Below the pieces are notes generated by a model that was not told where the DNA came from, did not search any database, and saw nothing but the letters and a program-made list of their open reading frames with translations. Shown here one piece after another: positions 16,790 to 40,317 of a stretch of 64,000 nt of DNA. The translations under genes were made by a program, and so were the position numbers. The stretch is from assembly GCA_937132065.1 (NCBI GenBank), contig CAKZNT010000040.1, positions 1-64,000 on the forward strand, written 5' to 3'. Positions within the stretch are counted from its first letter, which is position 1, and every line of letters starts with the position of its first letter. This DNA comes from an uncultured Loktanella sp. Lineage in GTDB: Bacteria > Pseudomonadota > Alphaproteobacteria > Rhodobacterales > Rhodobacteraceae.

Positions 16790-16838
16790 TGTCAGTAACC
16801 CATAAGAATGCAAATTTGAGACCATAAGCGTGCAAATT
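16790..16838. repeat. Left transposon end: terminal repeat and two TnsB-type sites
   Basis: After the terminal 8 bp, two direct copies of a 17-18 bp site lie 23 bp apart: CCATAAGAATGCAAATT at 16800-16816 and CCATAAGCGTGCAAATT at 16822-16838. They match the sites at the right end, and repeated 17-22 bp sites at both ends are the known arrangement for TnsB/TniA binding. A weaker TGCATTTTTGCAC at about 16851-16863 may be a third. Confidence 0.85.
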
Positions 16839-16885
16839 GAAGTCAAGACCTGCATTTTTGCACAGTAGTAAAAACTTCTGAATTT

Positions 16886-16915
16886 ATGGCGAGAGCAAGG
16901 CTCTCGCCATTTTTA
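16886..16915 (+). terminator. Intrinsic terminator inside the left end
   Basis: A perfect 11-bp stem, ATGGCGAGAGC (16886-16896) and GCTCTCGCCAT (16900-16910), with a 3-base loop and TTTT after it on the + strand. It would stop transcripts entering the element from nrdJ. The stem may also end tniQ transcripts arriving from the right, though that side lacks a clean U-run. Confidence 0.75.
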
Positions 16916-16923
16916 TGTTTAAC

Positions 16924-18765
16924 TTACAGCGCCTTAGGGAATGCGGTTTCGATGTCTGACCTCGAGAATATTCTTCCATAGTCTACTCCTTTAGGAGAAA
17001 ACGGAGCGATTTCGTGCATCGCTAAGATGCCAGACAGTTTTTGCCAACTGTGGCCCGTCTCTTTTGCCAGCGTCCTCAATGTGTAAAAATTCTGGTGGAA
17101 ACGCCGAGCATCTGCAGTTGTGACGTATGACTGCATCGCGTTGGTCTTGGGGTTTTTCATCTGAGTAGCAGTGGTATGCCCATTGATAATTAGTCGATTC
17201 AAATAGGTCGGCTGCCTAATCCCCACCGTTTTCGCAAAAACTTCGAGCGTCATCGCGTTCGGTGCATCTTTATCTAACGCGGCGACAACTTCGTCATGGT
17301 AGACAAAGACTCCACCATATCCACCAAAGTCGCGGTGCTTACCGACACGGTGAATACGGCCATCACGGATTGCTTGGATGATTGTGCTTGGACGTTGCTT
17401 GAGTCTAAGAGCCGACTTGGCAATATGTTCCCAACCGTGTTGTGCCTGTCGGAGTTCTTCTGCTCCAATCAGAATACTTTCCAGAAACTCATGTCCGGTG
17501 CGAGGATCCCAAACGTTTTTAGTGTCGGCATTCACTAGTGCGGGTTCAAGGATGTGATCCTCAACGAGCAGGTTAAACTGTGACCGGGACATGTTGAGGT
17601 TTTCAGCAAAATTCTTTGCCGGTAATAACGTGACCAAGGATGCTAAAAGCGGTTCCGCTGCCTTTGCGTCGAACACTGTCCACTTGTCTGGTCGCGTGCC
17701 CGTGACAATGCCGGCACCCTCGAGCATTTTCCGTAAACGGCGTTGATCAATGCCATATTCTTTAGAGGCCGTGACAACGGAATGAAGTTGTCTCTCTGAA
17801 ACGGGCTCGCCCAAAAGATCGTCTCCAATCCCGAGTGGCCATGACTTCAACATGTGTCGACGTAAAATATCTCGGAAAGGATCAAAGTCGGCAGCATCTT
17901 TATAGTCGCGAGAAAGCCGTTCGTAGAGAACAGGAAATATGGATTTTGGCCCCTGCTTTGCGTCAACCTCGAGGTCTATAAGGCGATCCAATTCGATTTG
18001 AATCGACTCTTCGCCGTCGTAGGCAACTTCAAATCCATACCTATACAAAACCCAATATCGGTCTTTTGCGACCGCGGAGGCTTGAATGCCTTTTCCATGA
18101 CGCAAAAGTGAGCATCCTAGCATAAAGCAAAAGTTGGCTGTCGCGTGTAGTTTGTAACTGTCCAGCCAACTTGTTCCAGGCCCGTTCTGCAGCCGGTGAT
18201 CTAACCATTTGTCAAAATCAGTTGGGTCGCGGAGCTCTTGATCAAAATTTCCTGAGAGGATTGATGGCGCAATTTTCTCCATCTGACTTGAGATGTCATA
18301 TCGGTTATGGGGGTTGGAATCCCTCCAAAGCGTTACCAGTGGGTGATTGTGTTTCGAGCAAATAGCGACGTGCGGAACCATCCAATGCCCTCGAAGCGCC
18401 ATTGACCAGTGTGGGCGTAGATCTAAGTCTACAGCATCTTCTTTTAAGCAAATTGGGCAACCGCGGACTATAGGATCACGGATGATTTTTGACGGAAAGA
18501 GTTCCCCACAAAACCTATGCTGTCTATTTGACAGCTTTTGTGGTGTTGATTTCAAAAGTGTTTCGACTGACGCGCCACCTAGCCATGCAAGAGCCTCAAT
18601 TACCTTTGGATCGCCATCCAAAACTTTCTGAAAGCTAATATCTTGATCGAGGCCGAACTCAGAGATGGACACACCATTTCGCGAACTCAGCCGCGACATG
18701 TAGGAAAAAGCCGTTTCATGGTCCTTAGAAATAAGACCGAGTCTTAATGGGGTAGACTGAACCAA
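16924..18765 (-). CDS. tniQ: TniQ/TnsD-family target-selection protein
   Basis: 613 residues from a TTG at 18765 that has GAGGAG six bases upstream; no in-frame ATG gives the N-terminal TniQ domain. The zinc-binding motif is visible as C103-x2-C106 and C136-x2-H139 (GCPICLKE, AICSKHNHPL), followed by about 450 residues rich in helix-turn-helix-like segments, for example around the SRSQFNLLVEDHIL and RQPTYLNRLIINGHT stretches. In Tn7-like elements such proteins bind the target and recruit TnsC. Its length is between Tn5053 TniQ (about 400) and Tn7 TnsD (about 508) or longer, so it probably has its own sequence-specific DNA-binding part. It sits alone at the left end, separated from tnsABC by 17 kb of cargo, and nearest to nrdJ. 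Confidence 0.88.
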   Translation of the reverse strand: MVQSTPLRLGLISKDHETAFSYMSRLSSRNGVSISEFGLDQDISFQKVLDGDPKVIEALAWLGGASVETLLKSTPQKLSNRQHRFCGELFPSKIIRDPIVRGCPICLKEDAVDLDLRPHWSMALRGHWMVPHVAICSKHNHPLVTLWRDSNPHNRYDISSQMEKIAPSILSGNFDQELRDPTDFDKWLDHRLQNGPGTSWLDSYKLHATANFCFMLGCSLLRHGKGIQASAVAKDRYWVLYRYGFEVAYDGEESIQIELDRLIDLEVDAKQGPKSIFPVLYERLSRDYKDAADFDPFRDILRRHMLKSWPLGIGDDLLGEPVSERQLHSVVTASKEYGIDQRRLRKMLEGAGIVTGTRPDKWTVFDAKAAEPLLASLVTLLPAKNFAENLNMSRSQFNLLVEDHILEPALVNADTKNVWDPRTGHEFLESILIGAEELRQAQHGWEHIAKSALRLKQRPSTIIQAIRDGRIHRVGKHRDFGGYGGVFVYHDEVVAALDKDAPNAMTLEVFAKTVGIRQPTYLNRLIINGHTTATQMKNPKTNAMQSYVTTADARRFHQNFYTLRTLAKETGHSWQKLSGILAMHEIAPFSPKGVDYGRIFSRSDIETAFPKAL

Positions 18766-18891
18766 CAGGGTCTCCTCGTTAGCTTTACGAATGGGATTGT
18801 AAATGGGTCAGAGTGTCGGAGGCCGCAGGTCATCGCCAGATATTGGTTGTTGATAAAAGCCGTATTCTGACGGTATTTGGTCAGCTATTCC

Positions 18892-20139
18892 CTAAGGCCA
18901 TTCCCAGTTGTAATATTTCTCAAAGACCGTGTTGAGGTCGGAAGTAGCTGCTGGATTGACGACGTATTGTGAAAACCAATGTGAAGTTTTGGCAGGTTCA
19001 TTTTCAATTGTATTCGCCACATAGGGATCGGAAACTAGCACCATTGGATTCAACTCATTGTAATCCGTGCTGATGGTTTTTAGCCAAGAAAGGCAAATCA
19101 CATCTGCTCCCGACGCTAGGATATATGCCCTTGCCGCTTCAAAGGAGTTTCCTTGGGTGCAAAAGTCATCAACAAGCAAAACAGTTTTTCCTTTCTTCAG
19201 CGGCGGGTTTTTATAGCGATCACCTTTCTTAGTTTTCAGAGGAGTAGGATTGAGGTGAATGGTATCGATCTGGTTTTTTATGCCAACAGTTTGACCCGCA
19301 ATTCGAGCGGTCTGAGATTTTTGCGCTGTTGTGTGCCGTATAAGAAGGTCTGGTATGAACTTTGCTTGCATACAGTCAGCAAAAACAGTGAGCGCTTCAT
19401 TGACGCTTGGATCAACTGAATCTGTAGAATGGCCTGGATAAGAAGTTACGAAGGAAATTTCTTCGGCAAGGCCTGAGGCATAAACCGATGAGGCTAATAA
19501 TCGCCCCCAAAAGGTGGCGTCTCCGCCTCCCGACTTGGCCGTATTCCTGGCATGGTAGGAGTAGCCATGCGCGTCCGTGTATCGAGCCGACATAGTCGAA
19601 AAGGGAGCCAGCGAAAACACTCGTAAGTTCTCACTTTCTAGCGCCCAGAACCATCCGTGAATTCCAATATAGAAACAATCAATGAATCTCGCGATGTCTT
19701 TCGGGCTATCGAATTTGAAGCCGTAATCATTTGCCTCGCCATGCCACAACGCATTTAGGAAGAGCAAGCCACTGTTCCGAGCCGTTCGCATGTCTGTCTC
19801 GGTGTTCCCAACATAAACAGCTTCATTCTTTTCCCAGCCAAGTTGGTCAAGCACATACTCCATTGCCGCTTTTTTGGGTTTGTAGGGCATCGGAGAAGAG
19901 TCCGCCATGAACCAGTCAAAATCACCAATATTTGTGGCAACAAATTCTTGAAATGGAATTTTGCCTCCGTCTTTCAAAGTCATCGTCCAGCTGTGGTTCC
20001 CAACAAAGACGGGTTTAAGGTCGTTTGCTATCATCCATTTAATGAGCTTCTCAAACTCTTTAAAAATTGTTGCGTCCATGGTGCCGCTTTTGACGACCAC
20101 GTCACGCAGTGAAAAGATCACACCTTTTAACTGTGACAA
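18892..20139 (-). CDS. Pseudo-HAD domain fused to ComFC-like phosphoribosyltransferase
   Basis: 415 residues. The start is a TTG at 20139 with AGGA 7 nt upstream. The N-terminal half has a HAD layout: motif I region KGVIFSLRDVVVKSG (residues 5-19), motif III YKPKKAAMEYVLDQLG, motif IV VYVGNTETDMRTARNSG. But the motif I aspartates are Ser10 and Arg12, and the first acidic residue of motif IV is Asn112, so phosphatase activity is unlikely. The C-terminal half is a type I phosphoribosyltransferase: a ComFC-like middle (ISFVTSYPGH, then TTAQKSQTARI) and a PRPP loop VLLVDDFCTQGNSFEAA (320-336). Nine bases separate it from the DprA-like gene upstream, so they form an operon. The pairing of DprA-like and PRTase domains recalls the PsyrTA/RqlHI toxin-antitoxin-like modules; function here is inferred only. 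Confidence 0.75.
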   Translation of the reverse strand: MSQLKGVIFSLRDVVVKSGTMDATIFKEFEKLIKWMIANDLKPVFVGNHSWTMTLKDGGKIPFQEFVATNIGDFDWFMADSSPMPYKPKKAAMEYVLDQLGWEKNEAVYVGNTETDMRTARNSGLLFLNALWHGEANDYGFKFDSPKDIARFIDCFYIGIHGWFWALESENLRVFSLAPFSTMSARYTDAHGYSYHARNTAKSGGGDATFWGRLLASSVYASGLAEEISFVTSYPGHSTDSVDPSVNEALTVFADCMQAKFIPDLLIRHTTAQKSQTARIAGQTVGIKNQIDTIHLNPTPLKTKKGDRYKNPPLKKGKTVLLVDDFCTQGNSFEAARAYILASGADVICLSWLKTISTDYNELNPMVLVSDPYVANTIENEPAKTSHWFSQYVVNPAATSDLNTVFEKYYNWEWP

Positions 20140-20148: not shown

Positions 20149-21174
20149 CTAAATGAGGTCAAGTTGGGTTTCGGGCAAAGGTAAAGGTGCAGACAATGCA
20201 TTTAGCACAAATTCAAAAAATGAATTTTGATCACGAGGCACTGTGAATACTCCAGAATTAAAATGTGATTTGCTTGGTAGTAAAACGCGAGTTTCGGGCC
20301 AATCAACAGCCTTTAGGGCGGCGATTGGTCGACGGAGTTTTGAAGCAAAGTTGACGGTGTGAGCTGTGCCGCTTTTAGGTGACCACTCAATGGGAATTAG
20401 AACTTTCCCCAGTGCCGCTTGGAGCCTATTTCTGCGGACGAAGTTCTCGCCGCTATAGCTATCATTTGGCAGATACTCCGTCACGATTGCACCACCTTCG
20501 CTAACAATCCTGTCGGCTAGTCGACTTGATCCTTTGGGATATTCGGTCTGTATTCCTGTCCCCAGAACCGCAATTGTAGGAACCTTCATCCGAATCGAAA
20601 ACTCGTGGACGGCTTGATCCATTCCTGTCGCCAAGCCACTGACTGTCGATGCTTTCCAATCGGCAAGATTCATCCCGACATACTGGCTCAACCATTCGCC
20701 GTCCGCCGAAGGTTTACGCGTTCCAACTGCGGTGATGGAGGGCCTACTTAATGCCGTGGCGTCCCCTCTAATAAAGAGCCAAGCGGGAGGTTCTTCTAGG
20801 CCCAAGAGGGCTTTAGGATAAATTGCAGAACCTAAGAAAGCAATCTGGGTCCCTTTACTCAAAAGATCGTCGTATAGACGATGGGATCTTTCCGATGCTT
20901 TGGAAGATGCGTCCTTCCAATCAATGTTCGATTCCCCAATTCTTGCACCGTGTTTTCGCAGCAGATTTGTGACTTCAGCGCCGTCATCCAAATCTAGAAT
21001 GCTACTGAATGTTATATTTTGGCGTTTCAGACCAAAAAGCGTCCAATACCCGACCCCTTTCAGGCTCGCCAAGGCAAGCAATGCTAGGGCCTCTTTGTTG
21101 CTGTGGTCGGATGCAATTAAACTATTTTCCAACTCTTTAAGCTTCCCATCTAAACAAATTTCGTAGGTCTCCAT
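20149..21174 (-). CDS. DprA/Smf-like Rossmann-fold protein
   Basis: 341 residues, ATG at 21174 with GGAGG upstream. Residues 30-60 resemble a helix-hairpin-helix-like segment (LALASLKGVGYWTLFGLKRQ). The DprA core follows: AVGTRKPS (149-156), VSGLATGMDQAVH (178-190), AVLGTGIQTEYPKG (202-215) and FVRRNRLQAALGKVLIP (245-261), all conserved DprA positions for nucleotide or DNA binding. Chromosomal DprA loads RecA on incoming single-stranded DNA. This copy lies in a transposon operon with a PRTase and has a divergent N-terminus, so it is more likely a defence or antitoxin-type homologue than the competence protein (inference). The C-terminal winged-helix domain of DprA is not evident. Confidence 0.85.
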   Translation of the reverse strand: METYEICLDGKLKELENSLIASDHSNKEALALLALASLKGVGYWTLFGLKRQNITFSSILDLDDGAEVTNLLRKHGARIGESNIDWKDASSKASERSHRLYDDLLSKGTQIAFLGSAIYPKALLGLEEPPAWLFIRGDATALSRPSITAVGTRKPSADGEWLSQYVGMNLADWKASTVSGLATGMDQAVHEFSIRMKVPTIAVLGTGIQTEYPKGSSRLADRIVSEGGAIVTEYLPNDSYSGENFVRRNRLQAALGKVLIPIEWSPKSGTAHTVNFASKLRRPIAALKAVDWPETRVLLPSKSHFNSGVFTVPRDQNSFFEFVLNALSAPLPLPETQLDLI

Positions 21175-21291: not shown

Positions 21292-22233
21292 TCAAAATCT
21301 CGACATTCCAGGTAATGACCAGCATAACTGCTCCGCTTCATCGCGGGTGCCCAAAAAAAATTCACCACCAAGGCTTTCGAGCTTTGCTGCGGCGCGGGCT
21401 TTGAAAAGGTTTTCTACGTCTTCGGCGGCTTGTTTGCTTGGGAACGCTTGAGAGGTTAGGCGGATCTCCCATTTCCCTGGGACCGCCGGGGGGAAGCTTT
21501 GGTTCAGCTCGTCTCGTCGGCGCACCGGATCATTGGACACACCGATCTTCAACATAACCGACTTGTCGCCGAAGGCCTTTTTGCGACCCAGTAGAGAATG
21601 CCCATTGCCAGTATATTCTGCGAGATAAAGATAGGTATCGCCGTCTTCATAGATTGAGGTGCGTTCTCCTGCAGATCCTGGAAATGCGCGGGATGGTTTG
21701 AATACCTCAGCGAACGGTTGGACCTTAGTATCGGCTTCAGCGATGGGTGGCTCCCCGAAGACGCTGACCTCGCGCACCTTGATTTTAAGGGCCTGCACGA
21801 TTTCATCCGTGTCAAGGTCGGTGCCATGGGTGGCGAGCGACTGACCCGCCTCGGGACGGTAGGAGTTGAAAGCGATACGGCTGATCATCACCTTTTCTTC
21901 AGCCCGCCATGCGCGGCGTATTGGGATGGCCTCGGACCATTGCCCCTCGTGTCCGGCATCGCGTTTGCGTGTCATACCTAATTCGGATGATTTCTCATGG
22001 TCGTGGATAGGGTTTGTATCGACCTGCACAAAACCCAGAACATAAGAGCGTTCGGCCTTAGCCGTTTCAGCGCTGACCGCGCCGTAAATCAGTATCAGAT
22101 CACCATCGTTCAGCCGCGCAGCATAACGGTCGCGGGCGGAGCTTTTAGTCCAGCCAACATAGCCGTCTTCCTCGGGGCTGAATCCATAGAATGACCGTGT
22201 CCAGATTTGCGTGCCTTCCGGAAGGGCGCTCAT
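21292..22233 (-). CDS. EVE-like plus GIY-YIG (T5orf172/MUG113-type) protein, restriction-operon accessory
   Basis: 313 residues, overlapping hsdS by 4 bp. The N-terminal part (about 1-150) has WTRSFYGFSPEEDGYVGWTK and NDGDLILIYG, consistent with an EVE/PUA-like modified-base-reader fold (moderate confidence). The C-terminal part (about 205-313) starts TYLYLAEYTG and continues MLKIGVSNDPVRRRDELNQ, the pattern of GIY-YIG nucleases of the T5orf172/MUG113 type, in which Tyr, Ile-Gly and Arg are catalytic. The last gene of the type I restriction operon, it may act on modified or cut DNA. That role is inferred from the domain pair and location. Confidence 0.7.
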   Translation of the reverse strand: MSALPEGTQIWTRSFYGFSPEEDGYVGWTKSSARDRYAARLNDGDLILIYGAVSAETAKAERSYVLGFVQVDTNPIHDHEKSSELGMTRKRDAGHEGQWSEAIPIRRAWRAEEKVMISRIAFNSYRPEAGQSLATHGTDLDTDEIVQALKIKVREVSVFGEPPIAEADTKVQPFAEVFKPSRAFPGSAGERTSIYEDGDTYLYLAEYTGNGHSLLGRKKAFGDKSVMLKIGVSNDPVRRRDELNQSFPPAVPGKWEIRLTSQAFPSKQAAEDVENLFKARAAAKLESLGGEFFLGTRDEAEQLCWSLPGMSRF

Positions 22234-23948
22234 GCGGCCACTTCTTCGCGAGTTGCTGGCTCCAACGCCTCGTGCAGAAGGGCTTCGAGGAGGCGGGTGC
22301 GGGTTGTGTTGGCGGTGGTCAAAGTGGCCTCCAGGCGGTCGCAGAGGGCCATGAGGGCGTCGACTTTGGCTACGATGCGGTGTTGTTCTGCAAGAGGCGG
22401 GAGCGGCACTGGCAAGCCATTCATTGCTTTGAGAGAAAGGTTCTTGATCGTAGCTCCCGTTGCTTGTTTGATGGCGTATTCAACATAGTAAGGTGTCTGG
22501 ATTAGAATTCGAATGAACTGCATATCTACCAAGGGCGAAATTTCAAAATAGCAGGCACTCTTTCCAAGTAGAACGCGTTCACCGTTGTAGAAGGCATAGT
22601 TTGTCAGTGTGCCATTGATCGAAACGAGCAAAGTTCTTTCATTTAGAGGTTTCGCATGCTTCTCATACTCTTCCTGAGACACCAATTTGGTATTTGGAAG
22701 GATTGAAATTTGCCCATCGCGAAGATTAGTCCCATTGATGAAGTGAATATTTCCAGTGCTAATGTAATTTGGGGTGCCGTGAAGTCCGTCGCCGAGATTG
22801 TAGGATAGCTCGCGTAAAGCAGCGACTGACCAGCTAGCAGGTAACGAGAAAGGCAAGTCTTCCTTGTTGCAGGAAAACTTGGTCGAACGCTTCATTTCTT
22901 GCGGTTCAACGTCTTCTTTTTTCCGCTTTCGAACCTGAACCAACAACTGTTCACCCGAACCATCCGCCTCATCCTGCTCCACAAGCTTCCCCTGCACGGC
23001 GAGGTTTAGGATGGTTTGGCGGAGGGTTTTGATTTGGTCGGGGCGGAATGTGAGGGTGGGGAGGGTCTCGAGGGCGAAGCGGGCGTGGGCGGGGAAGTCC
23101 TCGGGTGTTGTGTCGGCGGCGGTCAGTCGGCCGAGGCTGGCGGCGGTGAGCTTGTTGCGCGTCTCTTCGCGGGTCTTGCGGGCCTCTTCCAGCCGATCAC
23201 AGAGCGCCATGAGTTCATCGACCTTCGCCACTATCCGATGCTGCTCTGCGAGGGGTGGGAGAGGAAAAGCGGTTTCATTGATTTGTTTTGAACTTAAATT
23301 CGGGATCGCGCTACCCAATGAAATGCTCAGGTTTCGCGCTATCACAGTCTCGAAAAATATTCTTACAAACTTGATACTTGTTGAGAACGCCTCAATGCGC
23401 CCAACACGTTGGTTTAGAAGAAGTTGGTGGCCAGTGCGGTTGAAGGCTGTTTTTCCAGTAGTTGCTCCGGACATTGCGAGCAAAAGAGCATTCTCAGGTA
23501 TCCAGACTTCCTGCGAAACAGAATTTGCGGTCTCATCCGTAACACATTTTGCTGACGAAAGTGAAACCTCGCCGTCAACTAAATTGCCAATGCGGATGAC
23601 CGGAACGCCAGATGCCTTGAAGTCGGCGCTCTTGAAAGCAAAGCCATTCCAAAGTTTGATAATGTTGCCAAGCGGTTGCCAAATCCATCCGGACGGCAGC
23701 AAAAACTCCTGATCTAGAGCTGAAACATTTTCTAGGGAAATTGCTGTCGAAACACGTATACCTTGTAGACGCTCAGCTTTCTCAGCTTCAATTTTTTTCA
23801 AAAGCACCGATGCTGGTTCTTCGTCCGAGATCTGTGCTACCAGTTTCCCGCGCACTGCAAGATCTAGAACAAACCTTCGTAGCCGCACGATGGCATCTGG
23901 CGCATCGCTGATCTTCTCATAATGTTCCAAAAGACGGTCGGCGTTCAT
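22230..23948 (-). CDS. hsdS: Type I restriction-modification specificity subunit
   Basis: 572 residues in two target-recognition halves. Each half ends in the same conserved region: PLPPLAEQHRIVAKVDELMA near residue 240 and PLPPLAEQHRIVAKVDALMA near residue 525, each followed by a long helix that spaces the two recognition domains and contacts HsdM. The N-terminal conserved helix (DAIVRLRRFVLDLAVRGKLV) is repeated at the middle as QIKTLRQTILNLAVQGKLVE. The stretches between the repeats are the variable target-recognition domains, so the site should be a bipartite sequence that cannot be predicted here. The gene overlaps hsdM by 4 bp. Confidence 0.94.
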   Translation of the reverse strand: MNADRLLEHYEKISDAPDAIVRLRRFVLDLAVRGKLVAQISDEEPASVLLKKIEAEKAERLQGIRVSTAISLENVSALDQEFLLPSGWIWQPLGNIIKLWNGFAFKSADFKASGVPVIRIGNLVDGEVSLSSAKCVTDETANSVSQEVWIPENALLLAMSGATTGKTAFNRTGHQLLLNQRVGRIEAFSTSIKFVRIFFETVIARNLSISLGSAIPNLSSKQINETAFPLPPLAEQHRIVAKVDELMALCDRLEEARKTREETRNKLTAASLGRLTAADTTPEDFPAHARFALETLPTLTFRPDQIKTLRQTILNLAVQGKLVEQDEADGSGEQLLVQVRKRKKEDVEPQEMKRSTKFSCNKEDLPFSLPASWSVAALRELSYNLGDGLHGTPNYISTGNIHFINGTNLRDGQISILPNTKLVSQEEYEKHAKPLNERTLLVSINGTLTNYAFYNGERVLLGKSACYFEISPLVDMQFIRILIQTPYYVEYAIKQATGATIKNLSLKAMNGLPVPLPPLAEQHRIVAKVDALMALCDRLEATLTTANTTRTRLLEALLHEALEPATREEVAA

Positions 23949-25399: not shown

Positions 25400-25400
25400 G

Positions 25401-31389: not shown

Positions 31390-31412
31390 GCCTTTAGCAC
31401 GCTAGAGTAGTG

Positions 31413-31445
31413 AAAGGGCGGCATTGCGATGTCGCCCTTTTTCTC
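31413..31445 (+). terminator. Hairpin between frcB and frcC
   Basis: AAAGGGCG (31413-31420) pairs perfectly with CGCCCTTT (31433-31440), followed by a T-run. It is a partial terminator in the usual place after a binding-protein gene, so that frcB is expressed more than frcC and frcA from one promoter. Confidence 0.7.
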
Positions 31446-31482
31446 ACAATCGGACCGGACAAGTTTGGGGAAAACACAGATT

Positions 31483-32562
31483 ATGACTGACCAGAAACCA
31501 GAAGCGCCCGCAGGCTCTGATTTTGAGGCAGGGCTTTCCGCCGCCGATAAATCCGTGGCCTCGTTTGCGCGCGATGATAAAACCATCGGCTATATTTTAC
31601 GCGGCATTTTGCGCCGCAATCCAACAATCATTCCTGCGATGGTGCTGCTTGTCAGCGTCATCTGCTTTGGCATTATCGCCCCGAACTTTATGTCGCCGGG
31701 CGTGCTCTCGCTAGTGCTCAAGCAAGTCACAGTGACAGGTGTCGTCGCCATTGCGCAGACCCTGATCATCCTCACTGCAGGCATCGATCTGTCTGTGGGC
31801 GCGATTATGGTGCTATCTTCTATGATTATGGGGCGCTTAGCAGTCGATTTCGGGGTGCCGCCATTCTTTGCTGTGACTGTGTCGATGTTCTTTGGCGCGT
31901 TAATGGGCTGGCTGAACGGTTTCCTCGTGACTTACGTAAAGCTCCCACCGTTCATTGTTACCCTCGGGACCCTATCGGTCTTCACAGCGCTTCTTCTTTG
32001 GTATTCTGGCTCGCAATCAATTCGCGGTGCAGACATTCGCGAACTTGCGCCAAGTATTCTGTTCTTTGGCAATTCCCTGCGGTTCGGTGGCTTCGTGCTG
32101 ACCTATGGAGGGATAGCTTTGATAGTTCTCGCAATCGTTGTTTGGTATCTACTAAATCAAACTGCATGGGGGCGGCATGTGCACGCCATCGGTGATGATC
32201 CGGACGCAGCTATGCTTTCTGGCATCAAAATCAACCGCACTTTGATCTCAGTCTACGCACTCGCGGGCCTCATCTGCGGCTTTGCGGGATGGGTCGCAGC
32301 GGGGCGCGTTGGCTCAATTTCACCAATCGGATTTACCGACATCAACCTCGCCAGCATCACCGCTGTTGTGATCGGCGGCACCTCGCTCTTTGGTGGCCGT
32401 GGGTCAATCCTAGGCTCTGTTTTAGGAGCTATGATCGTCGGTGTATTCAACACAGGTCTCTCGCTCGCAGGCGTTGACGACTACTGGCAAATGTTTGCAG
32501 CGGGCAACCTTGTTCTGATCGCTGTTGCCCTTGACCAATGGCTGCGGAGGGCCACGAAATGA
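31483..32562 (+). CDS. frcC: Fructose-type ABC transporter permease
   Basis: 359 residues from the ATG at 31483 (MTDQKPEAPAG). After a hydrophilic N-terminus of about 60 residues come eight to ten hydrophobic segments. The BPD_transp_2 pattern is visible as LTAGIDLSVGAIMVLSSMI, LPPFIVTLGTLSVF and VVIGGTSLFGGRGSILGSV with the EAA-like loop. It sits in the inner membrane and forms the homodimeric channel with FrcA. It overlaps frcA by 4 bp. Confidence 0.92.
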   Translation: MTDQKPEAPAGSDFEAGLSAADKSVASFARDDKTIGYILRGILRRNPTIIPAMVLLVSVICFGIIAPNFMSPGVLSLVLKQVTVTGVVAIAQTLIILTAGIDLSVGAIMVLSSMIMGRLAVDFGVPPFFAVTVSMFFGALMGWLNGFLVTYVKLPPFIVTLGTLSVFTALLLWYSGSQSIRGADIRELAPSILFFGNSLRFGGFVLTYGGIALIVLAIVVWYLLNQTAWGRHVHAIGDDPDAAMLSGIKINRTLISVYALAGLICGFAGWVAAGRVGSISPIGFTDINLASITAVVIGGTSLFGGRGSILGSVLGAMIVGVFNTGLSLAGVDDYWQMFAAGNLVLIAVALDQWLRRATK

Positions 32563-33329
32563 GTGATATTCAACCAGTCATCCGTGCACGCGGTCTGATG
32601 AAACGCTATGGCACTGTAATCGCCATGGATGGGGCCGATTTTGACCTCTACCCTGGTGAGATTTGTGCAGTTATCGGCGATAACGGCGCGGGCAAGTCAA
32701 CGCTGATCAAGGCGCTGTCTGGCGCGGTCACACCCGACCACGGCGAGGTTCTCGTCGACGGCAAACCTGTTCACTTCAAGTCGCCAGATGACGCGCGCCG
32801 CGAAGGGATCGAGACGGTTTACCAAAACCTCGCTTTGTCGCCAGCGTTGTCCATTGCTGACAACATGTTCTTGGGTCGGGAAATCCGCAAAGAGGGGATC
32901 ATGGGCTCGGTCTTTCGCCAGATGGACCAACGCAAGATGCAAGACTTTGCACGCGATAAGCTGTCGGAACTTGGCCTGATGACGATCCAGAACATCAACC
33001 AAGCAGTTGAGACGCTCTCGGGCGGTCAGCGGCAAGGCGTGGCTGTGGCCCGCGCAGCAGCATTCGGGTCTAAGGTCATCATCCTAGACGAGCCAACCGC
33101 GGCGCTCGGCGTCAAAGAATCCCGCCGCGTGCTGGAGTTGATCCTCGACGTGCGCTCACGCGGTATTCCGATCATCCTGATCAGCCACAACATGCCGCAT
33201 GTGTTCGAGGTCGCGGATCGCATCCATGTGCACCGTTTGGGCAAACGGCTCTGCGTCATCGATCCCAAGGACTATACGATGTCCGACGCGGTGGCCTTTA
33301 TGACAGGGGCAAAAGAAGCGCCCGTTTAG
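32559..33329 (+). CDS. frcA: Fructose-type ABC transporter ATP-binding protein
   Basis: 256 residues, ATG overlapping the frcC stop. Single nucleotide-binding domain: Walker A GDNGAGKSTLI (40-50), signature LSGGQRQGVAVARA, Walker B VIILDEPTAALG, switch His in ILISHNMPH. FrcA-type proteins have one ABC domain, unlike RbsA/XylG which have two. No sugar kinase (frcK) follows, whereas FrcK accompanies the rhizobial operon. Confidence 0.93.
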   Translation: MSDIQPVIRARGLMKRYGTVIAMDGADFDLYPGEICAVIGDNGAGKSTLIKALSGAVTPDHGEVLVDGKPVHFKSPDDARREGIETVYQNLALSPALSIADNMFLGREIRKEGIMGSVFRQMDQRKMQDFARDKLSELGLMTIQNINQAVETLSGGQRQGVAVARAAAFGSKVIILDEPTAALGVKESRRVLELILDVRSRGIPIILISHNMPHVFEVADRIHVHRLGKRLCVIDPKDYTMSDAVAFMTGAKEAPV

Positions 33330-33558: not shown

Positions 33559-35355
33559 TCAAAAATTCAATATTCCCGCGGAGACCTTGTTAAGGTCACG
33601 TTCCAATTGTGACTGAAGCCGATTTATTCTGACAAGAGTATCTTGGCGCGTTTGAAATGCCTTTAAAAAGAGTTTTTGCCGTGCGGCAAATTTCTTGTTG
33701 TGTGCAACATTTTCTTTGGACTTGTTCTTAAAAACGAGAAGCGGCTCGGCAATTTCAAGCCGTTCGATGCTGCCAATGGAAAGGGACGGGCTTCGTATGT
33801 CGGTTGCCGTTTCTCTCCAGTATTTTTGAATTACCGGAGATTGCAGATACATGAACAGCATACGTGGATCGCAGGCTGGTCTTCCAATTTGGTCTGCTGA
33901 TTTGGTGCGAGCCCGCAAAATCATTACGGATTGGCCCGCCCATACTTTTAGATCGCTTCCGTCATCGCCAAGTTTTGGAACGTAGTAGGCGACGCGACCA
34001 ACAGGGCCGCGATGAGCAAGTAGAATATCTCCAGGGCTGAGTTCCTGCTCTTCAAGCTTGTCGGCTTTTGTAGTCATCACCAAAAGCTGTCGAGAGGTCT
34101 CTGCAATCTCTCCCAATTCGGTAATGTCGCCGGCACGCACTTCGGTTATTGGGAAATCCCCGTTGGAATCATGGCGGGTCGTTTTTGGGCGAATAACATC
34201 GAACAGGTCTGCCAACCGTGTTCTGACTGGCCTATGCAGGTTTTCAAATATCTTCTGAAGCTCATTGCCGGCTGTAGGACCGTTTCCGAGGTATTTGGAT
34301 GGTAGTAGGACACCTTGAAGGTTTTCTATTTCGGCAGGACTAATTGTCTGGTTCGCCCCCCGAAGTTCCCTTGCTTCAAATTCAAACTGCTGCGGGAGAC
34401 GGTTCGCACTTTTCATTATAACATTATCATAATGCTGGTCTGCGGCACCAAGCTCGACTGCAAAGCGGGTTATTTTTTTTAGATCATGAATCGCGGCGAC
34501 ACTCCGCATTCTGCCAGATTTCCGAAGAATTTTTCGCGTGTGTGCCCTGGACCGTTTTGGTGTTGTCAGGAAGTCATGAGAAACAAAAGCCAACGATGAC
34601 GATGGCCGCGTTGCAAGGTAGGCCAGCATGACGCTTTCTAGATCAAATTTCTTATTGTCGACCGCGCGTGGAATTTTGGTTTTACGAATGCTGGGTTCGA
34701 TTTCGTCGTCTTTTTTTTGATAACCAGACCAATCGTCAGAGGTAAAGACAGCAGGGGGGCAGGTAACCTCAAGGCCAGGTGCCGTGATAGTAGGTTCGTC
34801 GTCAACATCATCGTCAGTGTCTATGACTTCTGTTTCCCACGGCGTCCCAGTTTCAACGTGAATAGGTAATTCCAGAAAAAGTGCTGTAACCGCTACGAGA
34901 GATAAATCCGCCTCAATCCCCGCGTATACTACAGGAGCTGGCGCTCTGTCGCGCCGAGTAGGGCGGGAGACCGTGTTGGCATAGGTTAAACATGCCACAA
35001 TTGCTGCAGGGAATGAGAAACGGATGACTTTGTATGGGCCGCAATATTTAAGAGTGTCCTCAATCAACTGAGTGTTAATCAATGCATTCTCGATATTCGC
35101 ATTCGAAATTAGGCTGATCACGGCCTTCACGCGATCAGCCTGCTCAAAGCTCTCGATGAGGCTTGCGACATAAGTAAGGTCTAGCTCGCGGGAAATGGTT
35201 GGCGTCTGCGTTTTTATATTGAAGCGTGTTTCAACATCATTGAGCGCCTTTAAGTTTGTCTTCCCTGCGCGTTTTCGGATTGCATGCTGCAATAGTTGAG
35301 TAATGTCCTCAATCGTCGAAAAGTCGAAGGCAACGATTTTTTCGGCAAAACTCAT
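33559..35355 (-). CDS. N6-methylase-like protein lacking catalytic motifs, fused to HsdS-like specificity domain
   Basis: 598 residues from the ATG at 35355 (GGGGAG 7 nt upstream); a longer frame to 35415 lacks a ribosome site. The middle resembles the Rossmann part of N6-adenine methylases: YAGIEADLSLVAVTALFLEL, TCPPAVF where active enzymes have NPPY/F, and SSSLAFVSHDFLTTPKRSR matching the post-motif-IV region. No DPACGTG motif I is present, so it is probably inactive. The C-terminal 200 residues form an HsdS-type target recognition domain: VRAGDITELGEI, LSPGDILLAHRGPVGRVAYYV, VWAGQSVMILRA, SPVIQKYWRETA and SIERLEIAEPLL. Alone between the sugar operon and tnsABC, with no partner subunit beside it, it could be a DNA-binding accessory of the transposon or a defence component. 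Neither is shown. Confidence 0.6.
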   Translation of the reverse strand: MSFAEKIVAFDFSTIEDITQLLQHAIRKRAGKTNLKALNDVETRFNIKTQTPTISRELDLTYVASLIESFEQADRVKAVISLISNANIENALINTQLIEDTLKYCGPYKVIRFSFPAAIVACLTYANTVSRPTRRDRAPAPVVYAGIEADLSLVAVTALFLELPIHVETGTPWETEVIDTDDDVDDEPTITAPGLEVTCPPAVFTSDDWSGYQKKDDEIEPSIRKTKIPRAVDNKKFDLESVMLAYLATRPSSSLAFVSHDFLTTPKRSRAHTRKILRKSGRMRSVAAIHDLKKITRFAVELGAADQHYDNVIMKSANRLPQQFEFEARELRGANQTISPAEIENLQGVLLPSKYLGNGPTAGNELQKIFENLHRPVRTRLADLFDVIRPKTTRHDSNGDFPITEVRAGDITELGEIAETSRQLLVMTTKADKLEEQELSPGDILLAHRGPVGRVAYYVPKLGDDGSDLKVWAGQSVMILRARTKSADQIGRPACDPRMLFMYLQSPVIQKYWRETATDIRSPSLSIGSIERLEIAEPLLVFKNKSKENVAHNKKFAARQKLFLKAFQTRQDTLVRINRLQSQLERDLNKVSAGILNF

Positions 35356-36140
35356 ACAGCGCTCCCCAGCGTTTAGCTTGATTAAGCAAAGACGCGAGTC
35401 TGCCTTAAATGTCAAAGTAGAACTGAAGGTCTAGAATAGCGTCCAACAGGAAGCTGTAAATTTCTTCGATTCTATCAGTGTCTGATAGAAGTTTTTTCAG
35501 CACAGCTACATCGCTAGAACCGCGGACACCTTCCTGCTATTGATTGGTTGTCACGTGAAAAGACGAAGCGAAAAGGTTGTATTTGTCAGATACACAACTT
35601 GCGAAAAACGAGAGGCTCAGAATCCTCGCAACATATTGATTTAGAAGGATGATTTGACTCGAATCGATATGTGTGAAAACGCTGAAAGCCTACCCAAAAC
35701 ACGTGGTTCTACTACTCATGTAGGGCCGCTCAACTAAAATGCCGAAAGGAGCGAGCAATGAAATAACAGGGCAAAGAAAAGGGCTTAACTGCGCTAACAG
35801 TCAAACCCTTTTGTGACTGGAAATCCAGCTACCACACATGAACTGATAGTTCATAGCAGCCTTCGAGGCAACGGATTTCCCTCAATATGAGCACGTCACG
35901 CATGAGTGACCGATCGCTGGTAACGCCAACGACCGGTCGCCTCTGCCTAGATGAAATGCAGTGCCGGTCGGCGAAATGACCGGAACCCCAATCATATTCT
36001 TGGCTCAAAATTCCCGCTCAAATTTTTCTGCGTGAATTAAGCCAAGCCCCCTCGTGAATTTCGATCAAGCGCCTGGAAGGCCACGATCCAAATTACATCG
36101 AATTCAGCTGGAAATTCCGATTTCCAGAATTGGAGAAGCT
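35356..36140. other. 785-bp non-coding region with predicted RNA structure upstream of tnsA
   Basis: No supported gene. Structured parts lie at 35777-35880: AAAAGGG (35777-35783) pairs with CCCTTTT (35806-35812). GGAAATCC (35819-35826) pairs perfectly with GGATTTCC (35873-35880), enclosing the hairpin TGAACT-GAT-AGTTCA (35839-35853) and a small CC-TTCGA-GG hairpin, a three-way-junction layout. Just before, a consensus AAAGGAG precedes ATG-AAA-TAA, a two-codon frame at about 35758. From 35908 to 35985, GACCGATCG, GACCGGTCG, GCCGGTCGG and GACCGG recur. The region holds the two divergent promoters and may encode a leader or small RNA. Confidence 0.45.
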
Positions 36141-36899
36141 ATGTCACTTGATGATATTGACGACGTCGAAACCCTCTATGGGATTAAGAAACTACCTCGC
36201 CAGTCTAAGATTGAGCTACGCGAAATTCATGGAGTTTTGCCAAGCCGCCACGACCGAAACCCAATTAGAACTAGCGCCACGTCACAAACCTCGACATTCG
36301 TATACAAAGTTGCGGCGACGGGCTTCAAAGAGGAAATCGGGCTTGTAGAGAGTCAGGCCGAGGTCGCTGTGGGCGAAGAGCTTTTGCTCTCACCAGAGAC
36401 CTATGATGTTGAGTTCCAGCCACTTACATTCGACTACGAATATCCGAAAGGGCGCACAAAACCGCACACAATTGATATTCGGCTGACCACGATCTCTGGC
36501 CGGCGGGTGTTAGTTTTTGTTCGCTATGAGGAGAGCCTACTAAAGCCAAAAGTGTGGGATGAGATCGAAGCAATTCGGGCTGCTTACCCCCGAACAGAGG
36601 CAGATGATTTCATTGTCATCAATGCGAATGATTACACGCGTCCAAGGCGTGAAAACCTTCGCAGGATGCATCGATTGGTGATGTTTCAGCCGGACGATTT
36701 GGCCGACGAAATGGTTTTTGAAGCAGTTCAAGAACTGAAGACGCTGTGGCTAATGAAGGATCTTTGCAAGGCAATGAACCTTTCGAAAGCCCGCGTTTTC
36801 CAGTCCTGCCTTCGGTTGATCGCTAGAGGCCGACTTGGCGCCAACATGGACGCAGTCATTTGTCATCATTCACGGATCTGGAGGACCGAAACATGCTGA
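36141..36899 (+). CDS. tnsA: TnsA-like endonuclease-fold protein with altered active site
   Basis: 252 residues from the ATG at 36141 (GGAGA 6 nt before); a GTG 87 bases upstream has no ribosome site. The order AEVAVGEELLLSPETYDVEF-QP (E74, Q93-P94), HTIDIRL (H109, D112) and VLVFVRYEESL (124-133) fits the TnsA N-terminal fold, whose catalytic set in Tn7 is Glu63, Asp114, Gln130 and Lys132. Here the Q-x-K position reads F126-V-R128, so the acidic/amide residue is lost and Lys is Arg. The C-terminal part (about 185-252) resembles a winged helix, as in TnsA. TnsA normally cuts the 5' ends so that the element leaves cleanly. With TnsB overlapping by 7 bp, it is in the transposition operon. Function of the altered protein is uncertain. 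Confidence 0.78.
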   Translation: MSLDDIDDVETLYGIKKLPRQSKIELREIHGVLPSRHDRNPIRTSATSQTSTFVYKVAATGFKEEIGLVESQAEVAVGEELLLSPETYDVEFQPLTFDYEYPKGRTKPHTIDIRLTTISGRRVLVFVRYEESLLKPKVWDEIEAIRAAYPRTEADDFIVINANDYTRPRRENLRRMHRLVMFQPDDLADEMVFEAVQELKTLWLMKDLCKAMNLSKARVFQSCLRLIARGRLGANMDAVICHHSRIWRTETC

Positions 36900-39073
36900 A
36901 ACCAAAATACAACATCGCGCGTGGGATGGAGTTTTCTCATCCCAGTGCGGGGAAGCAGGTCGTTACTCAAAGCAAGAATGGTGCCTACCATGCGGTGAGC
37001 GTCGAGACTGGGCAAACCTCTGTTTTGACCTATCGAGAGATGATTTCGACGTTGAGCCGTCCTGGCACGTCTGCCGCTAACGGTCATAAGAGTTTTGCCG
37101 CTGGAAGTGCGCGTATTCGCGATGGTGGTTTGCACCATGAAGCGCAGCTTACGCCTAAAGTGCGTCAACAAAAGAGGTTTCTTGGCGCTGTAATGCGCGG
37201 GATCAAAGAGTTAGAAGATGGAGGACTTCGCATTTACGCGACGGGTCTCAACGACTTAGAAACGCGGAAAGAGATCGCTGCGATTGCGCGTCAGGAATAT
37301 ACCGAGCACCCTATTGCGGTAGTTATGCGAGGTGGTTCGATTTCGTTTTTGGCGGTGATGCCTGCTGGTCGAACACTCATGCAGAAATACGAACAATGGG
37401 TGGAATCTGGGTATGACGACATGGTTCTTCCCGACCACTCTCATTTTCGTGGCAATCGGACAAACCACGGAGTTTGCCAGCGTCTTTACGAGCTGATTTC
37501 GGAGGCCATTGAAAGTGTTTACCTCGATACGAGGAAACCAACGCCTGCAGCAGTTCTAAGAAAACATACCGACTTGGTCGTTGTTGAAAATGAATCTCGT
37601 CGACGCAACGATCTTAAAGAACTGAAAGCGGTCGCCCACAAAACCATTACGCGCCAAATCAAGAACCTAAATAAGACGGCCGTTGATATTGCGCGAGAGG
37701 GTGAGCGATGGGCTTTGAATAACCGAACAAGTGGGTCGACTGATTATCGATCGCTTATGATCGGTGAGGAGGTCGAAATTGACGAGTGCAAACTGTCATT
37801 GATTGTGGAGGCGCGGAGGAAAGGGATTTGGGACCGCTTAAGCCCCGAGCAGCAAGAGGCCCTCGAAGAAATTGATGAGATTATCAAAACCCGAATTTGG
37901 CTTGTCTTGATGCTTGATGTTGCAACTCGCAACCCACTTGGTTGGGCATTGACGGATACACCCTCTCATGAGGTAACTTTGGAAGTTATCAGAATGGCAA
38001 CGCGTGATAAAACACGTGAAGCGCGTAAATACGGGTGTGAGTGCGAGCCGATGCCTGCTGTTGGTATCGGCTGTATGAAGGGCGATAACGGGACTGGTCT
38101 CCGAAATTCAGAAGTGAAATCGACTGCCAGCGGAATTCGAACGCAGACTGTTGATGCGCGCACCTATCGTGGCGTCGATAAGCCCTATGTCGAGCGGATT
38201 TTTGGCACGATCGAAAGTGTGCTGATCAGTATGCTTACCGGTTACACAGGGCGTCGTGCAGGGCAGGTGCCTGGATATGACCCAATCGCAAGTGGCGTCC
38301 TTGATGTCGAAGAGCTCTACGGGATCATCACGCGCTACTTGATCGACGTGTATCCCCAGGAGCGTCACTACGGTGTGACAATGATGGGCGCACGGCCAGC
38401 TAACATGGCAAGAGCAGTAAATGATGAATACGGGTGCATTCTTCCACCTGCCGATCATGACAGACGGATTCAGCTTGGGTGGTCGGATGAGGCCAAAGTC
38501 ACAGATGATGGGGTCAAGTTTTTGAACCTGCCTTACAATTCGAAAGACCTTCAAGACGTCCGTGATGCGGTAAAAGGTAAAGTCACTGTCTTTGTCGATC
38601 CCGACAACATTGCCAGTGCCACGATTTTGGTGGTTGGGCGCCCGGAGCCGATCCTGGTTGAGTTGACTTGGACCGCGATGCGAGACTTGACGTTACACGA
38701 ATTTTTGGACGTCGCACTTCAGGCCCGCAAGGAAGCACCCGAAGAAACGCGGCTGATCGAAAGTCATCTCGCTAAGGTCCGCGGTGATCTCGAAGCTGAC
38801 ATGACGCAAAAGATGCGTGAGCGAAAAGTGCCGCGAAGCTTTCACACGTGGCCTGAAGCGCTCAAAAAGGCTCAAGTTATTCGTAGGGGCATGCAGGATC
38901 TGCGCCAGTCGGAGCCAATGGCTGGGACAGTTCAGGCTGGACGTATCATGGACGCTGTGCGTGATGATTTGCCCGACCACGGCACCGCGCAGATCGAAGA
39001 TCAGGCCAATGAGATCATCACGCCAGAAACGGCTAAGTTTGCGCCCCCCAAAAACACAGGAAAACTGTCATGA
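36893..39073 (+). CDS. tnsB: TnsB/TniA DDE transposase
   Basis: 726 residues from the ATG at 36893 with GGAGG 8 nt upstream; a TTG start at 36860 is less likely. The retroviral-integrase core carries Asp297 (EEVEIDECKLS), Asp398 (MKGDNGTG) and Glu434 (PYVERIFGTIE), a DD(35)E spacing. The N-terminal domains (about 1-230) are the end-binding part, the C-terminal Mu-type beta barrel and a linker with charged tail (about 600-726) meet TnsC. It cuts 3' ends and joins them to the target. It overlaps tnsC by 4 bp. Confidence 0.94.
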   Translation: MLKPKYNIARGMEFSHPSAGKQVVTQSKNGAYHAVSVETGQTSVLTYREMISTLSRPGTSAANGHKSFAAGSARIRDGGLHHEAQLTPKVRQQKRFLGAVMRGIKELEDGGLRIYATGLNDLETRKEIAAIARQEYTEHPIAVVMRGGSISFLAVMPAGRTLMQKYEQWVESGYDDMVLPDHSHFRGNRTNHGVCQRLYELISEAIESVYLDTRKPTPAAVLRKHTDLVVVENESRRRNDLKELKAVAHKTITRQIKNLNKTAVDIAREGERWALNNRTSGSTDYRSLMIGEEVEIDECKLSLIVEARRKGIWDRLSPEQQEALEEIDEIIKTRIWLVLMLDVATRNPLGWALTDTPSHEVTLEVIRMATRDKTREARKYGCECEPMPAVGIGCMKGDNGTGLRNSEVKSTASGIRTQTVDARTYRGVDKPYVERIFGTIESVLISMLTGYTGRRAGQVPGYDPIASGVLDVEELYGIITRYLIDVYPQERHYGVTMMGARPANMARAVNDEYGCILPPADHDRRIQLGWSDEAKVTDDGVKFLNLPYNSKDLQDVRDAVKGKVTVFVDPDNIASATILVVGRPEPILVELTWTAMRDLTLHEFLDVALQARKEAPEETRLIESHLAKVRGDLEADMTQKMRERKVPRSFHTWPEALKKAQVIRRGMQDLRQSEPMAGTVQAGRIMDAVRDDLPDHGTAQIEDQANEIITPETAKFAPPKNTGKLS

Positions 39074-40089
39074 GTTTCATTCAAGAAAAAACGTTTGCCG
39101 TCACGAAAACCCTTCAGGGCGCCCACTATGCGTTTGAGAGGGCCAAAGAACTTCGCGCTGGCATGGAGTGGATGATTACGGATTACGCTGCCAAGGCGGC
39201 CAACGAGAGGCCGTTTGAGGCGCGCGGTCTAATTGTTACGGGACCATCACGCACCGGGAAGTCGGATGAAATCGCAAACATGCTGAGCGCTGTAAATGAC
39301 GGTTCCACAATTATGCCAGACGGTCGCCCCGCAATGATCGAGAAGGTTACATTGAGTGGTTCCTTAAGCTTCAAGGAACTCGGCAAAAGGACCCTGAAAG
39401 ATGCGCTTGGTTATGGCGTCAACGGTTCGGATAAATTGGCCAGCCGTTCAAACCAAGACGACGTATGGGACAAGGTCTTTTTTCAAGCGAAAGAGCAGGG
39501 GGTCATTGGTATCCATTTCGATGAATGCCAACACATCTTTTCGGGTAAAAGCGCTGCAGTCCGGCGGGTTGTTCTGGATAGTTTCAAGTCTTTGCTCAAG
39601 CGGACAGATTGGCCGTTGATGTTGATCTTGTCTGGGGTCGATGATTTGACCGCTTATGTATCTGAGGAAGAGCAACTTTCTTACCTTCTGCGACCGATCG
39701 AATTCGGTGAAATCCGATCATACAATCAGGCCGACCTGAGTGAGATCAATGACCTTTGCCACCTCTATGCCGGCAAAGTTGATATGATTTTTCCTAAGGA
39801 TTTATGGACGGAAGACTTCTTCAAGCGATTGGCATTTAGTTCAGGAAATCGCTGGGGTCTATTGATTGAGCTTGTGATCAGCGCACTGAAAATCGCTCAT
39901 GCAGCTGATGCCGATCATGTTGGCAGGTCAAGTTTTTGCAGGGCATTCACCGATCGAACCGCGTTCCCAATCGGACATTCTCCTTTTGTGACGGATGACT
40001 ATGAAGCTGCGTTCGACACCCAAAAGATCTTGGATATGGTTCGGCGGAAAGAGGTCGCAGCGAAGGCCAAGGCGCAAAAGGCGAAATAA
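39070..40089 (+). CDS. tnsC: TnsC/TniB AAA+ transposition regulator
   Basis: 339 residues. Walker A is GPSRTGKSDE (58-67), Walker B is GIHFDECQHIFSGK (147-160) and the later arginine-rich helix region is DDLTAYVSEEEQLSYLLRPIEF. The length matches TniB and the shorter TnsC type. The ATPase forms the filament that links TniQ-bound target DNA to TnsAB. It is the last gene of the right-end operon and is followed by a strong terminator before the right end. Confidence 0.93.
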   Translation: MSFIQEKTFAVTKTLQGAHYAFERAKELRAGMEWMITDYAAKAANERPFEARGLIVTGPSRTGKSDEIANMLSAVNDGSTIMPDGRPAMIEKVTLSGSLSFKELGKRTLKDALGYGVNGSDKLASRSNQDDVWDKVFFQAKEQGVIGIHFDECQHIFSGKSAAVRRVVLDSFKSLLKRTDWPLMLILSGVDDLTAYVSEEEQLSYLLRPIEFGEIRSYNQADLSEINDLCHLYAGKVDMIFPKDLWTEDFFKRLAFSSGNRWGLLIELVISALKIAHAADADHVGRSSFCRAFTDRTAFPIGHSPFVTDDYEAAFDTQKILDMVRRKEVAAKAKAQKAK

Positions 40090-40124
40090 GTTTCGACACA
40101 CCTCAATCTGTTTCGTTATTGAAG

Positions 40125-40148
40125 CCCGCGCATTGCGCGGGTTTTTTT
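40125..40148 (+). terminator. Intrinsic terminator after tnsC
   Basis: CCCGCGC (40125-40131) and GCGCGGG (40135-40141) form a 7-bp GC-rich stem with an ATT loop and seven T residues behind it. It ends the tnsABC transcript inside the element. Confidence 0.9.
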
Positions 40149-40176
40149 ATGTGGATAGACTGAATTTAACACTGAG

Positions 40177-40317
40177 GATTTGCATGCTTATGCGTTAAAT
40201 TTGCATGGTTATGGAGGACTCGCCATTGGCGCGCGCTTTATTCCTTATTAATCAAGGGCTTACCAATGCTCCCTATTGATTCTATTGGGAAATTTGCACT
40301 CTTATGGGCTACTGACA
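40177..40317. repeat. Right transposon end: three TnsB-type sites and terminal repeat
   Basis: Read inward from 40317 the end is TGTCAGTAGCCCATAAGAGT followed by GCAAATTT (40290-40317). Two more copies in the same orientation are CCATAACCATGCAAATTT (complement of 40197-40214) and CGCATAAGCATGCAAATC (complement of 40177-40194), giving the shared core CATAA(G/C)xxTGCAAAT. The right end holds closely spaced inner copies, the left end fewer, as in Tn7. Confidence 0.85.

Follow-up and report, generated by a model that had tools for sequence, protein, structure and literature searches.

How does a Tn7-like transposon come to lie just behind nrdJ, and which of its parts selects that place? The question is raised by a window of 64,000 nucleotides (the whole stretch of DNA analysed) from an uncultured Loktanella sp., contig CAKZNT010000040.1, in which an element of 23,528 bp (16790-40317) begins 19 bp beyond the stop codon of a gene, nrdJ, whose product we take to be a B12-type ribonucleotide reductase. 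In our judgement this is very probably a complete Tn7-like transposon whose TnsD-like TniQ recognises the 3' coding end of nrdJ, recruits TnsC and TnsAB and inserts 19 bp past the stop codon, and whose modules have been reassorted.

Ends and core genes of the element

The left end begins with TGTCAGTAACCCATAAGAATGCAAATTTG. Over the outer 28 positions the two ends form terminal inverted repeats that are identical at 26 positions (mismatches at 9 and 19), and GTGTG stands outside both as a 5-bp target-site duplication. The repeat motif CCATAAGNNTGCAAATT occurs in two copies at the left end and three at the right, the innermost right copy being weaker. The tniQ gene is located at the left end and tnsA, tnsB and tnsC at the right end; all four are intact and transcribed outward. 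The features that define the element and its site are as follows.

14377-16770, plus strand: nrdJ, 3' end the proposed attachment site, stop codon at 16768-16770 (Pfam Ribonuc_red_lgC, E 1.6e-127)
16785-16789, no strand: target-site duplication GTGTG, left copy (from the sequence)
16790-16817, plus strand: left terminal inverted repeat (26/28 with the right end)
16800-16816, plus strand: TnsB-type repeat L1 (CCATAAGAATGCAAATT; motif search)
16822-16838, plus strand: TnsB-type repeat L2 (motif search)
16924-18765, minus strand: tniQ, 613 amino acids, proposed nrdJ target selector (Pfam TniQ PF06527, E 2.8e-18; tree)
36054-36899, plus strand: tnsA (PF08722, E 0.0011, below the cut-off; aligns with TnsA relatives)
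36860-39073, plus strand: tnsB (Mu_C, E 1.7e-4; PseTnsAB, E 2.3e-17; Tn6677 TnsB, 5.5e-5)
39070-40089, plus strand: tnsC (TniB, E 4.9e-4, 20.0 bits against a cut-off of 22.4)
40177-40193, minus strand: TnsB-type repeat R3, weaker (motif search)
40198-40214, minus strand: TnsB-type repeat R2 (motif search)
40290-40317, minus strand: right terminal inverted repeat (26/28 with the left end), containing TnsB-type repeat R1 (40291-40307)
40318-40322, no strand: target-site duplication GTGTG, right copy (from the sequence)
40337-41176, minus strand: DUF2177, flanking host gene outside the element (Pfam DUF2177, E 5.8e-36)

The motif TTTGCANNNTTATGG has four exact matches in the 64 kb, each no more than about 120 bp from an element end; with three mismatches tolerated it gave 58 matches, which is the chance level. 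Across the source genome, a 2.94-Mb draft in 92 contigs, CCATAAGNNTGCAAATT at one mismatch or fewer was found four times, always at the ends of the element, and the reversed motif, used as a control, was not found. TnsB presumably binds these repeats. Features expected of a Tn7-like element are thus present at the DNA level, namely arrays of TnsB-type sites at both ends, TG...CA termini and the 5-bp duplication.

Family models give strong support for TniQ and, together with solved relatives, for TnsB; for TnsC and TnsA their support is weak but consistent. The Mu_C, PseTnsAB and Tn6677 TnsB matches place TnsB in the DDE/Mu type, and TnsC shows, weakly by family model, the features of an AAA+ regulator. 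The tnsC gene lies directly 3' of tnsB, contains GPSRTGKS, which we take to be a Walker A-like motif, and is 53% identical to tnsC of two other loci (L031 and L074). When compared to solved structures, TnsA and TnsC gave no TnsA or TnsC match, and the TniQ profile gave weak TniQ/TnsD matches (E 0.08-0.25) that ranked below unrelated aminopeptidases. A structure model of TnsA was too poor to be used (predicted local distance difference test score, pLDDT, 43).

An earlier note on this DNA had described a complete Tn7-like transposon with these ends and this duplication and with the four core genes inside it, and that description holds, with weaker family matches for TnsC and TnsA. Its suggestion of recent activity gained no support. 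Only one copy of the element was located in the draft genome, the terminal motif at one mismatch or fewer matching these two ends and nothing that would mark the further copies for which the note had proposed a search; the closest TnsB that turned up shares 50% identity with the window's; and at three mismatches or fewer the window's end sequence has no counterpart in 53 of 55 genus mates. A single scan of genome contigs returned one relative only, and in plasmid records the TniQ and TnsB relatives among the matches listed (15 of 39 and 20 of 54) were all below 35% identity.

nrdJ as an insertion site

The main point, which goes beyond what the earlier note claimed, is that nrdJ probably serves as a homing site. 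The regions downstream of nrdJ were surveyed in 57 genomes, 47 of the genus (including the window) and 10 of other genera, the latter selected for having core genes close to nrdJ. Clear core genes of the Tn7-like kind, or fragments of them, were found in nine of the 47 genus flanks (the window, G298, G300, G301, G306, G323, G327, G337 and G342), which is a lower bound because the flank lengths covered ranged from about 0.15 to 60 kb; G319 and G333 have weak core-gene traces only. Outside the genus, Tn7-like core genes lie behind nrdJ in at least 11 further genera by tables matched by eye (G013, G039, G042, G051, G097, G123, G183, G225, G232, G263 and G270). An exact 5-bp duplication together with paired ends was identified in four of the 57 flanks.

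Window element: 19 bp after nrdJ, duplication GTGTG, ends 18/20
G342 element: 23 bp after nrdJ, duplication TCTGG, ends 19/20
G263 element: 24 bp after nrdJ, duplication TCGGG, ends 14/20, right end about 200 bp after its tniQ
G337 element: 27 bp after nrdJ, duplication CGTAC, ends 18/20

The four elements differ in their terminal sequences and share a set insertion distance past the end of a conserved gene, a further feature of the Tn7-like group. As a control, the same paired-end search was run at 2,040 random anchors; seven of them gave 14/20 or better, the best being 16, so that the G263 element is weak on its own.

Over 58 sequences, the last 75 bases of nrdJ agree with the consensus at 0.92, 0.94 and 0.64 for codon positions 1, 2 and 3, and the sequence after the stop codon at 0.38-0.39. 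On the 3' side of nrdJ, and no more than 40 kb from it, stand eight of the genus's 35 TniQ match rows, counted as seven of 34 elements; with the genome assumed to measure 3.6 or 2.5 Mb, the binomial p is 9e-8 to 1e-6.

Some further observations were made on these flanks. Judged by eye, TG-initiated stretches stand soon after the nrdJ stop codon in G341, G294, G322, G331, G343, G344, G302, G299 and others; they resemble the transposon ends of other flanks though no core genes were detected, and are possibly relics or elements with an undetected core. Behind nrdJ in G051 (L039, 15999-18101), an open reading frame (ORF) fuses a TniQ-like stretch, 53% identical to residues 297-389 of the window TniQ, to a TnsB body, and a short tnsC comes next; this is either a relic or a real fusion. 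The nrdJ matches of G297:C1 and G300:C1 are split in two within long open frames (1166 and 889 amino acids), an intein-like pattern.

The site follows TniQ

In a quick tree of 59 TniQ rows, which include nrdJ rows added because of their position, the 12 nrdJ rows need five label changes, against a shuffled mean of 11.1-11.2, and none of 500 shuffles was as low. Five rows, every one beside nrdJ, make up the smallest starred set containing the window TniQ. In the corresponding quick tree of 35 TnsB rows, the nine nrdJ rows need seven changes, against 8.1 when shuffled, and 105-113 of 500 shuffles were as low; in these comparisons the label "other" includes rows on short contigs with the target out of view (L142). 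The insertion site tracks TniQ rather than the transposase, which is good indirect evidence, drawn from sequence comparison, that TniQ sets the site.

By analogy with TnsD of Tn7, and in keeping with the tree correlation, TniQ would be the DNA reader and TnsC the bridge between TniQ and TnsAB. TniQ would bind the conserved 3' coding end of nrdJ, where TnsC would join it, and TnsAB would excise the element and join it to the DNA 19 bp beyond the stop codon, so that a 5-bp duplication arises and nrdJ stays intact.

Relatives at tRNA genes and exchange of modules

The TniQs of the sister clade (17 rows) point to a different target. A tRNA gene lies beside 13 of the 17 loci and beside none of 18 other loci that we picked from the remaining rows (Fisher 1.6e-6). 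These tRNAs (Arg-TCT in eight cases, Arg-CCT in three, Met and Gln in one each) are convergent with tniQ and lie 146-358 bp from its end. A fourteenth sister locus, G067, has paired ends (16/20), the duplication CTTAT and a left end 18 bp past a tRNA-Arg-CCT gene. Inside this G067 element, ARAGORN calls a tmRNA gene (L041, 12411-12589).

Two types of element ends, A and B, were sorted by target in 13 tRNA loci and the six loci at nrdJ that belong to the TniQ group of the window. Type A was found at eight tRNA genes and at one nrdJ, that of the window, and type B at two tRNA genes and two nrdJ genes; the end motifs were written after the sequences had been seen, and random 140-base stretches match them in 1.6% (A) and 0.6% (B) of cases. 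Since A and B are each represented at tRNA genes and at nrdJ, the homing and transposase modules seem to reassort. The window element combines end type A, found mostly at tRNA genes in its relatives, with a TniQ of the nrdJ-homing clade, and in G342, another species, a TniQ of that clade is paired with a distant TnsABC. Between the window and G342, identity is 49% for TniQ, 22% for TnsA, 25% for TnsB and 25% for TnsC, and reaches 71% for HsdR and 79% for HsdM. At the tRNA-Met gene of G183, pieces of TnsA and TnsB are 52% and 45% identical to those of the window.

In the nearest relatives of the window TnsB (L074, from Paracoccus methylarcula, L031 and L032) the TniQ gene adjoins tnsA. A single clade of their TniQs with that of the window was rejected in an approximately unbiased test (p-AU 1e-37), the group having been defined after sequence comparison. 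Our initial idea was that the window TniQ had been swapped into a lineage with an operonic TniQ; it was widened once the sister TniQs turned out to lie at tRNA genes, frequently with ends of type A.

Ends like those of the window (three mismatches or fewer) were found in two of the 55 genus mates, G342 and G310, near tRNA-Lys; they do not belong to a copy of the window element. In G310 they stand singly, about 116 bp from tRNA-Lys, and G342 has a further single one following a stretch that resembles a degenerate tRNA-Lys and yields no gene call from ARAGORN. G342 also holds a decayed 3.9-kb element (G342:C4; L270, 731-4645) with window-type ends and the duplication CACAA, 14 bp from tRNA-Lys; its tnsC remnant is 45% identical to the window tnsC.

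Reassortment of a homing module and a transposase module is the most likely account of these combinations. We lean, with some reserve, towards a more specific form of it: that the opposite-end TniQ cassette is exchanged as a unit between distant TnsABC and end types in hosts that, judged from relatives, are Rhodobacteraceae-like, that TniQ alone decides between tRNA and nrdJ, and that nrdJ is a shared attachment site of many Tn7-like lineages, where co-resident elements can make such exchanges.

Alternative explanations

Several observations weigh against nrdJ recognition by TniQ and against reassortment. A single clade of all nrdJ TniQs was rejected (p-AU 4e-50), which implies that homing to nrdJ was gained or lost on more than one occasion. 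Two near relatives of the window TniQ, that of G088 (42%, the next tree row to the window clade) and a fragment in G218 (45%), do not lie beside nrdJ. Half of the six nrdJ loci, and three tRNA loci out of 13, could not be given an end type; the combination of type A ends with nrdJ is seen in the window element only. Paired ends were sought for L031, L074, L032 and L035 and none were found, which leaves the nearest TnsB relatives without a placed insertion site; nor did the ends of the scanned relatives show the strict window motif in an array. Finally, the uninterrupted nrdJ-DUF2177 junction for which the earlier note had proposed a search was not found in 55 other genomes sampled from the genus. 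Among the genus loci compared at first, none had the right flank after nrdJ, and in the 11 genus mates with a good right-flank match this flank is on a different contig from nrdJ or at a distance of 2 Mb. Many-contig drafts leave room for such a junction, and we do not read the negative result as refuting the insertion because the duplication is exact, the ends are intact and three further nrdJ elements have exact duplications at a like distance.

The missing adjacency and the 92-contig state of the genome would also suit a misassembled right flank, or ends and a 5-bp repeat that match by chance. We give this very little credence: the ends agree at 26 of 28 positions around an exact duplication, core genes lie at both ends, and the repeats there match nowhere else in the genome at one mismatch or fewer. 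It is also improbable, if less so, that the element is Tn7-like and the gap behind nrdJ merely permissive, with nrdJ not read by TniQ. Several lineages do insert there, and the sequence after the stop codon is so little conserved that any neutral gap might serve; but four exact duplications fall within 19-27 bp of nrdJ, TniQ genes of the genus lie on its 3' side at the binomial p given above, and the nrdJ label follows the TniQ tree and not the TnsB tree.

The last alternative concerns the mode of movement and is compatible with nrdJ homing. The window TnsA has an arginine, R157 in an FVR motif, at the position of the catalytic lysine expected from E. coli TnsA. Seven of eight close relatives (L033, L032, L074, L031, L041, L035 and L043) also have arginine there, and L036 retains lysine. 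TnsA could be present and catalytically dead, and the element could move replicatively, via cointegrates, as Tn5053 does. We regard this as unlikely, since the tnsA frame is kept open among the relatives, E103 and D141 are invariant in the eight aligned sequences, and no resolvase family was found among the 18 element ORFs scanned with Pfam; TnsA-less elements usually carry a resolvase, according to the accessible text of PMC8649781.

Cargo

Between tniQ and tnsA the element carries 17.3 kb of cargo, less than the 19 kb of the earlier note; its "mostly defence" amounts to about two thirds (~11.4 kb, defence-like), and 4.3 kb encode a sugar-type ABC transporter and a ROK regulator.

18892-20139, minus strand: ShosT-like, HAD plus phosphoribosyltransferase (PADLOC ShosT, E 7.9e-87)
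20149-21174, minus strand: ShosA-like, DprA family (PADLOC ShosA, E 5.2e-79)
21292-22233, minus strand: weak EVE plus T5orf172-like protein (Pfam, E 0.018 and 0.0012, both below the cut-off)
22230-23948, minus strand: hsdS (Pfam Methylase_S, E 1.1e-29)
23945-25417, minus strand: hsdM (Pfam N6_Mtase, E 2.1e-71)
25401-25946, minus strand: 181-amino-acid protein between hsdM and hsdR (no family above the cut-off)
25952-28426, minus strand: hsdR (Pfam ResIII, E 2.6e-46; EcoEI_R_C, E 4.9e-33)
29000-30208, minus strand: ROK-family regulator (Pfam ROK, E 4.2e-19)
30274-33329, plus strand: sugar-type ABC transporter, with binding protein, permease and ATPase (Pfam Peripla_BP_4, BPD_transp_2, ABC_tran)
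33559-35415, minus strand: orphan 618-amino-acid protein with an HsdS-like C-terminal part (PADLOC Specificity_I, E 7.6e-10)

The type I restriction operon has two small extra genes in or beside it (21292-22233 and 25401-25946). The orphan protein at 33559-35415, an HsdS-like DNA reader beside tnsA, was considered as a second target selector and rejected as a leading idea because its five relatives are weak matches and all four of those examined adjoin HsdM-like genes; one of these four, in G259, also adjoins a tnsA. No Cas family, the mark of CRISPR-associated transposons (CASTs), was found in the element ORFs scanned (18 with Pfam, 10 with PADLOC and NCBIfam), where PADLOC labels TniQ alone in this respect. 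TnsE, which is weakly conserved, was not found among the 18 ORFs scanned with Pfam, a set that excludes small ORFs.

Comparison with known systems

Tn7 homes to the glmS site through TnsD, and members of the Tn5053/Tn402 family make 5-bp duplications and have similar ends. Like the latter, the window element has a single TniQ; it differs from them in its tnsA and in that the scanned ORFs revealed no resolvase. With Tn7 it shares TnsA, TnsB, TnsC, a TniQ-family selector, repeated TnsB sites, the 5-bp duplication and insertion near a conserved gene (compared with the accessible text of PMC11406308 and PMC8649781). Unlike Tn7, it targets nrdJ and not glmS, has tniQ and tnsABC at opposite ends, all outward, and shows no TnsE among the window ORFs scanned. 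The I-B2 and I-D CASTs home to tRNA genes through TnsD, as the available parts of PMC11406308 and PMC10293859 describe; homing past a conserved gene end is common to both, and the window's sister TniQs adjoin tRNA-Arg, Met and Gln, whereas the window TniQ is at nrdJ and no Cas proteins were found among the window ORFs scanned. Tn6022 also belongs to the Tn7-like elements, has tnsA and homes to a chromosomal gene, comM, through TniQ and TnsF (PMC10293859, accessible text); in contrast, the window TniQ is long (613 amino acids) and the target gene uninterrupted. No TnsF was recognised in the window, where no TnsF model was used.

Our search, which lay outside subscription literature and supplements, found no paper linking Tn7-like elements with nrdJ or ribonucleotide reductase, nor one in which tnsD and nrdJ occur together; the pairing of ribonucleotide reductase with TniQ led to a single paper, on a Bordetella genome. 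The homing sites named in the available text of reviews and surveys (including PMC10293859, PMC11406308 and PMC8649781) are glmS, parE, comM, yhiN and tRNA genes, and nrdJ is not among them there. Faure et al. report only few dual loci suggesting tniQ exchange between transposons (PMC10293859), and a 2024 review describes promiscuous TniQ exchange in the I-B2/I-D branch (PMC11406308), each as far as the accessible text goes. As a kind of event, module exchange is therefore already known; what appears new is the nrdJ site, along with the particular module combinations seen here.

Implications

With nrdJ, a conserved gene would join the short list of homing sites known for Tn7-like elements. The related TniQs described here form a natural set that differs in target, nrdJ or tRNA-Arg, and is paired with several transposases. 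This opens both the DNA-reading code of TniQ and its ability to work with TnsABC from other elements to direct tests, which bear on guide-free programmable insertion. The 3' ends of nrdJ genes are also places where defence islands may be sought.

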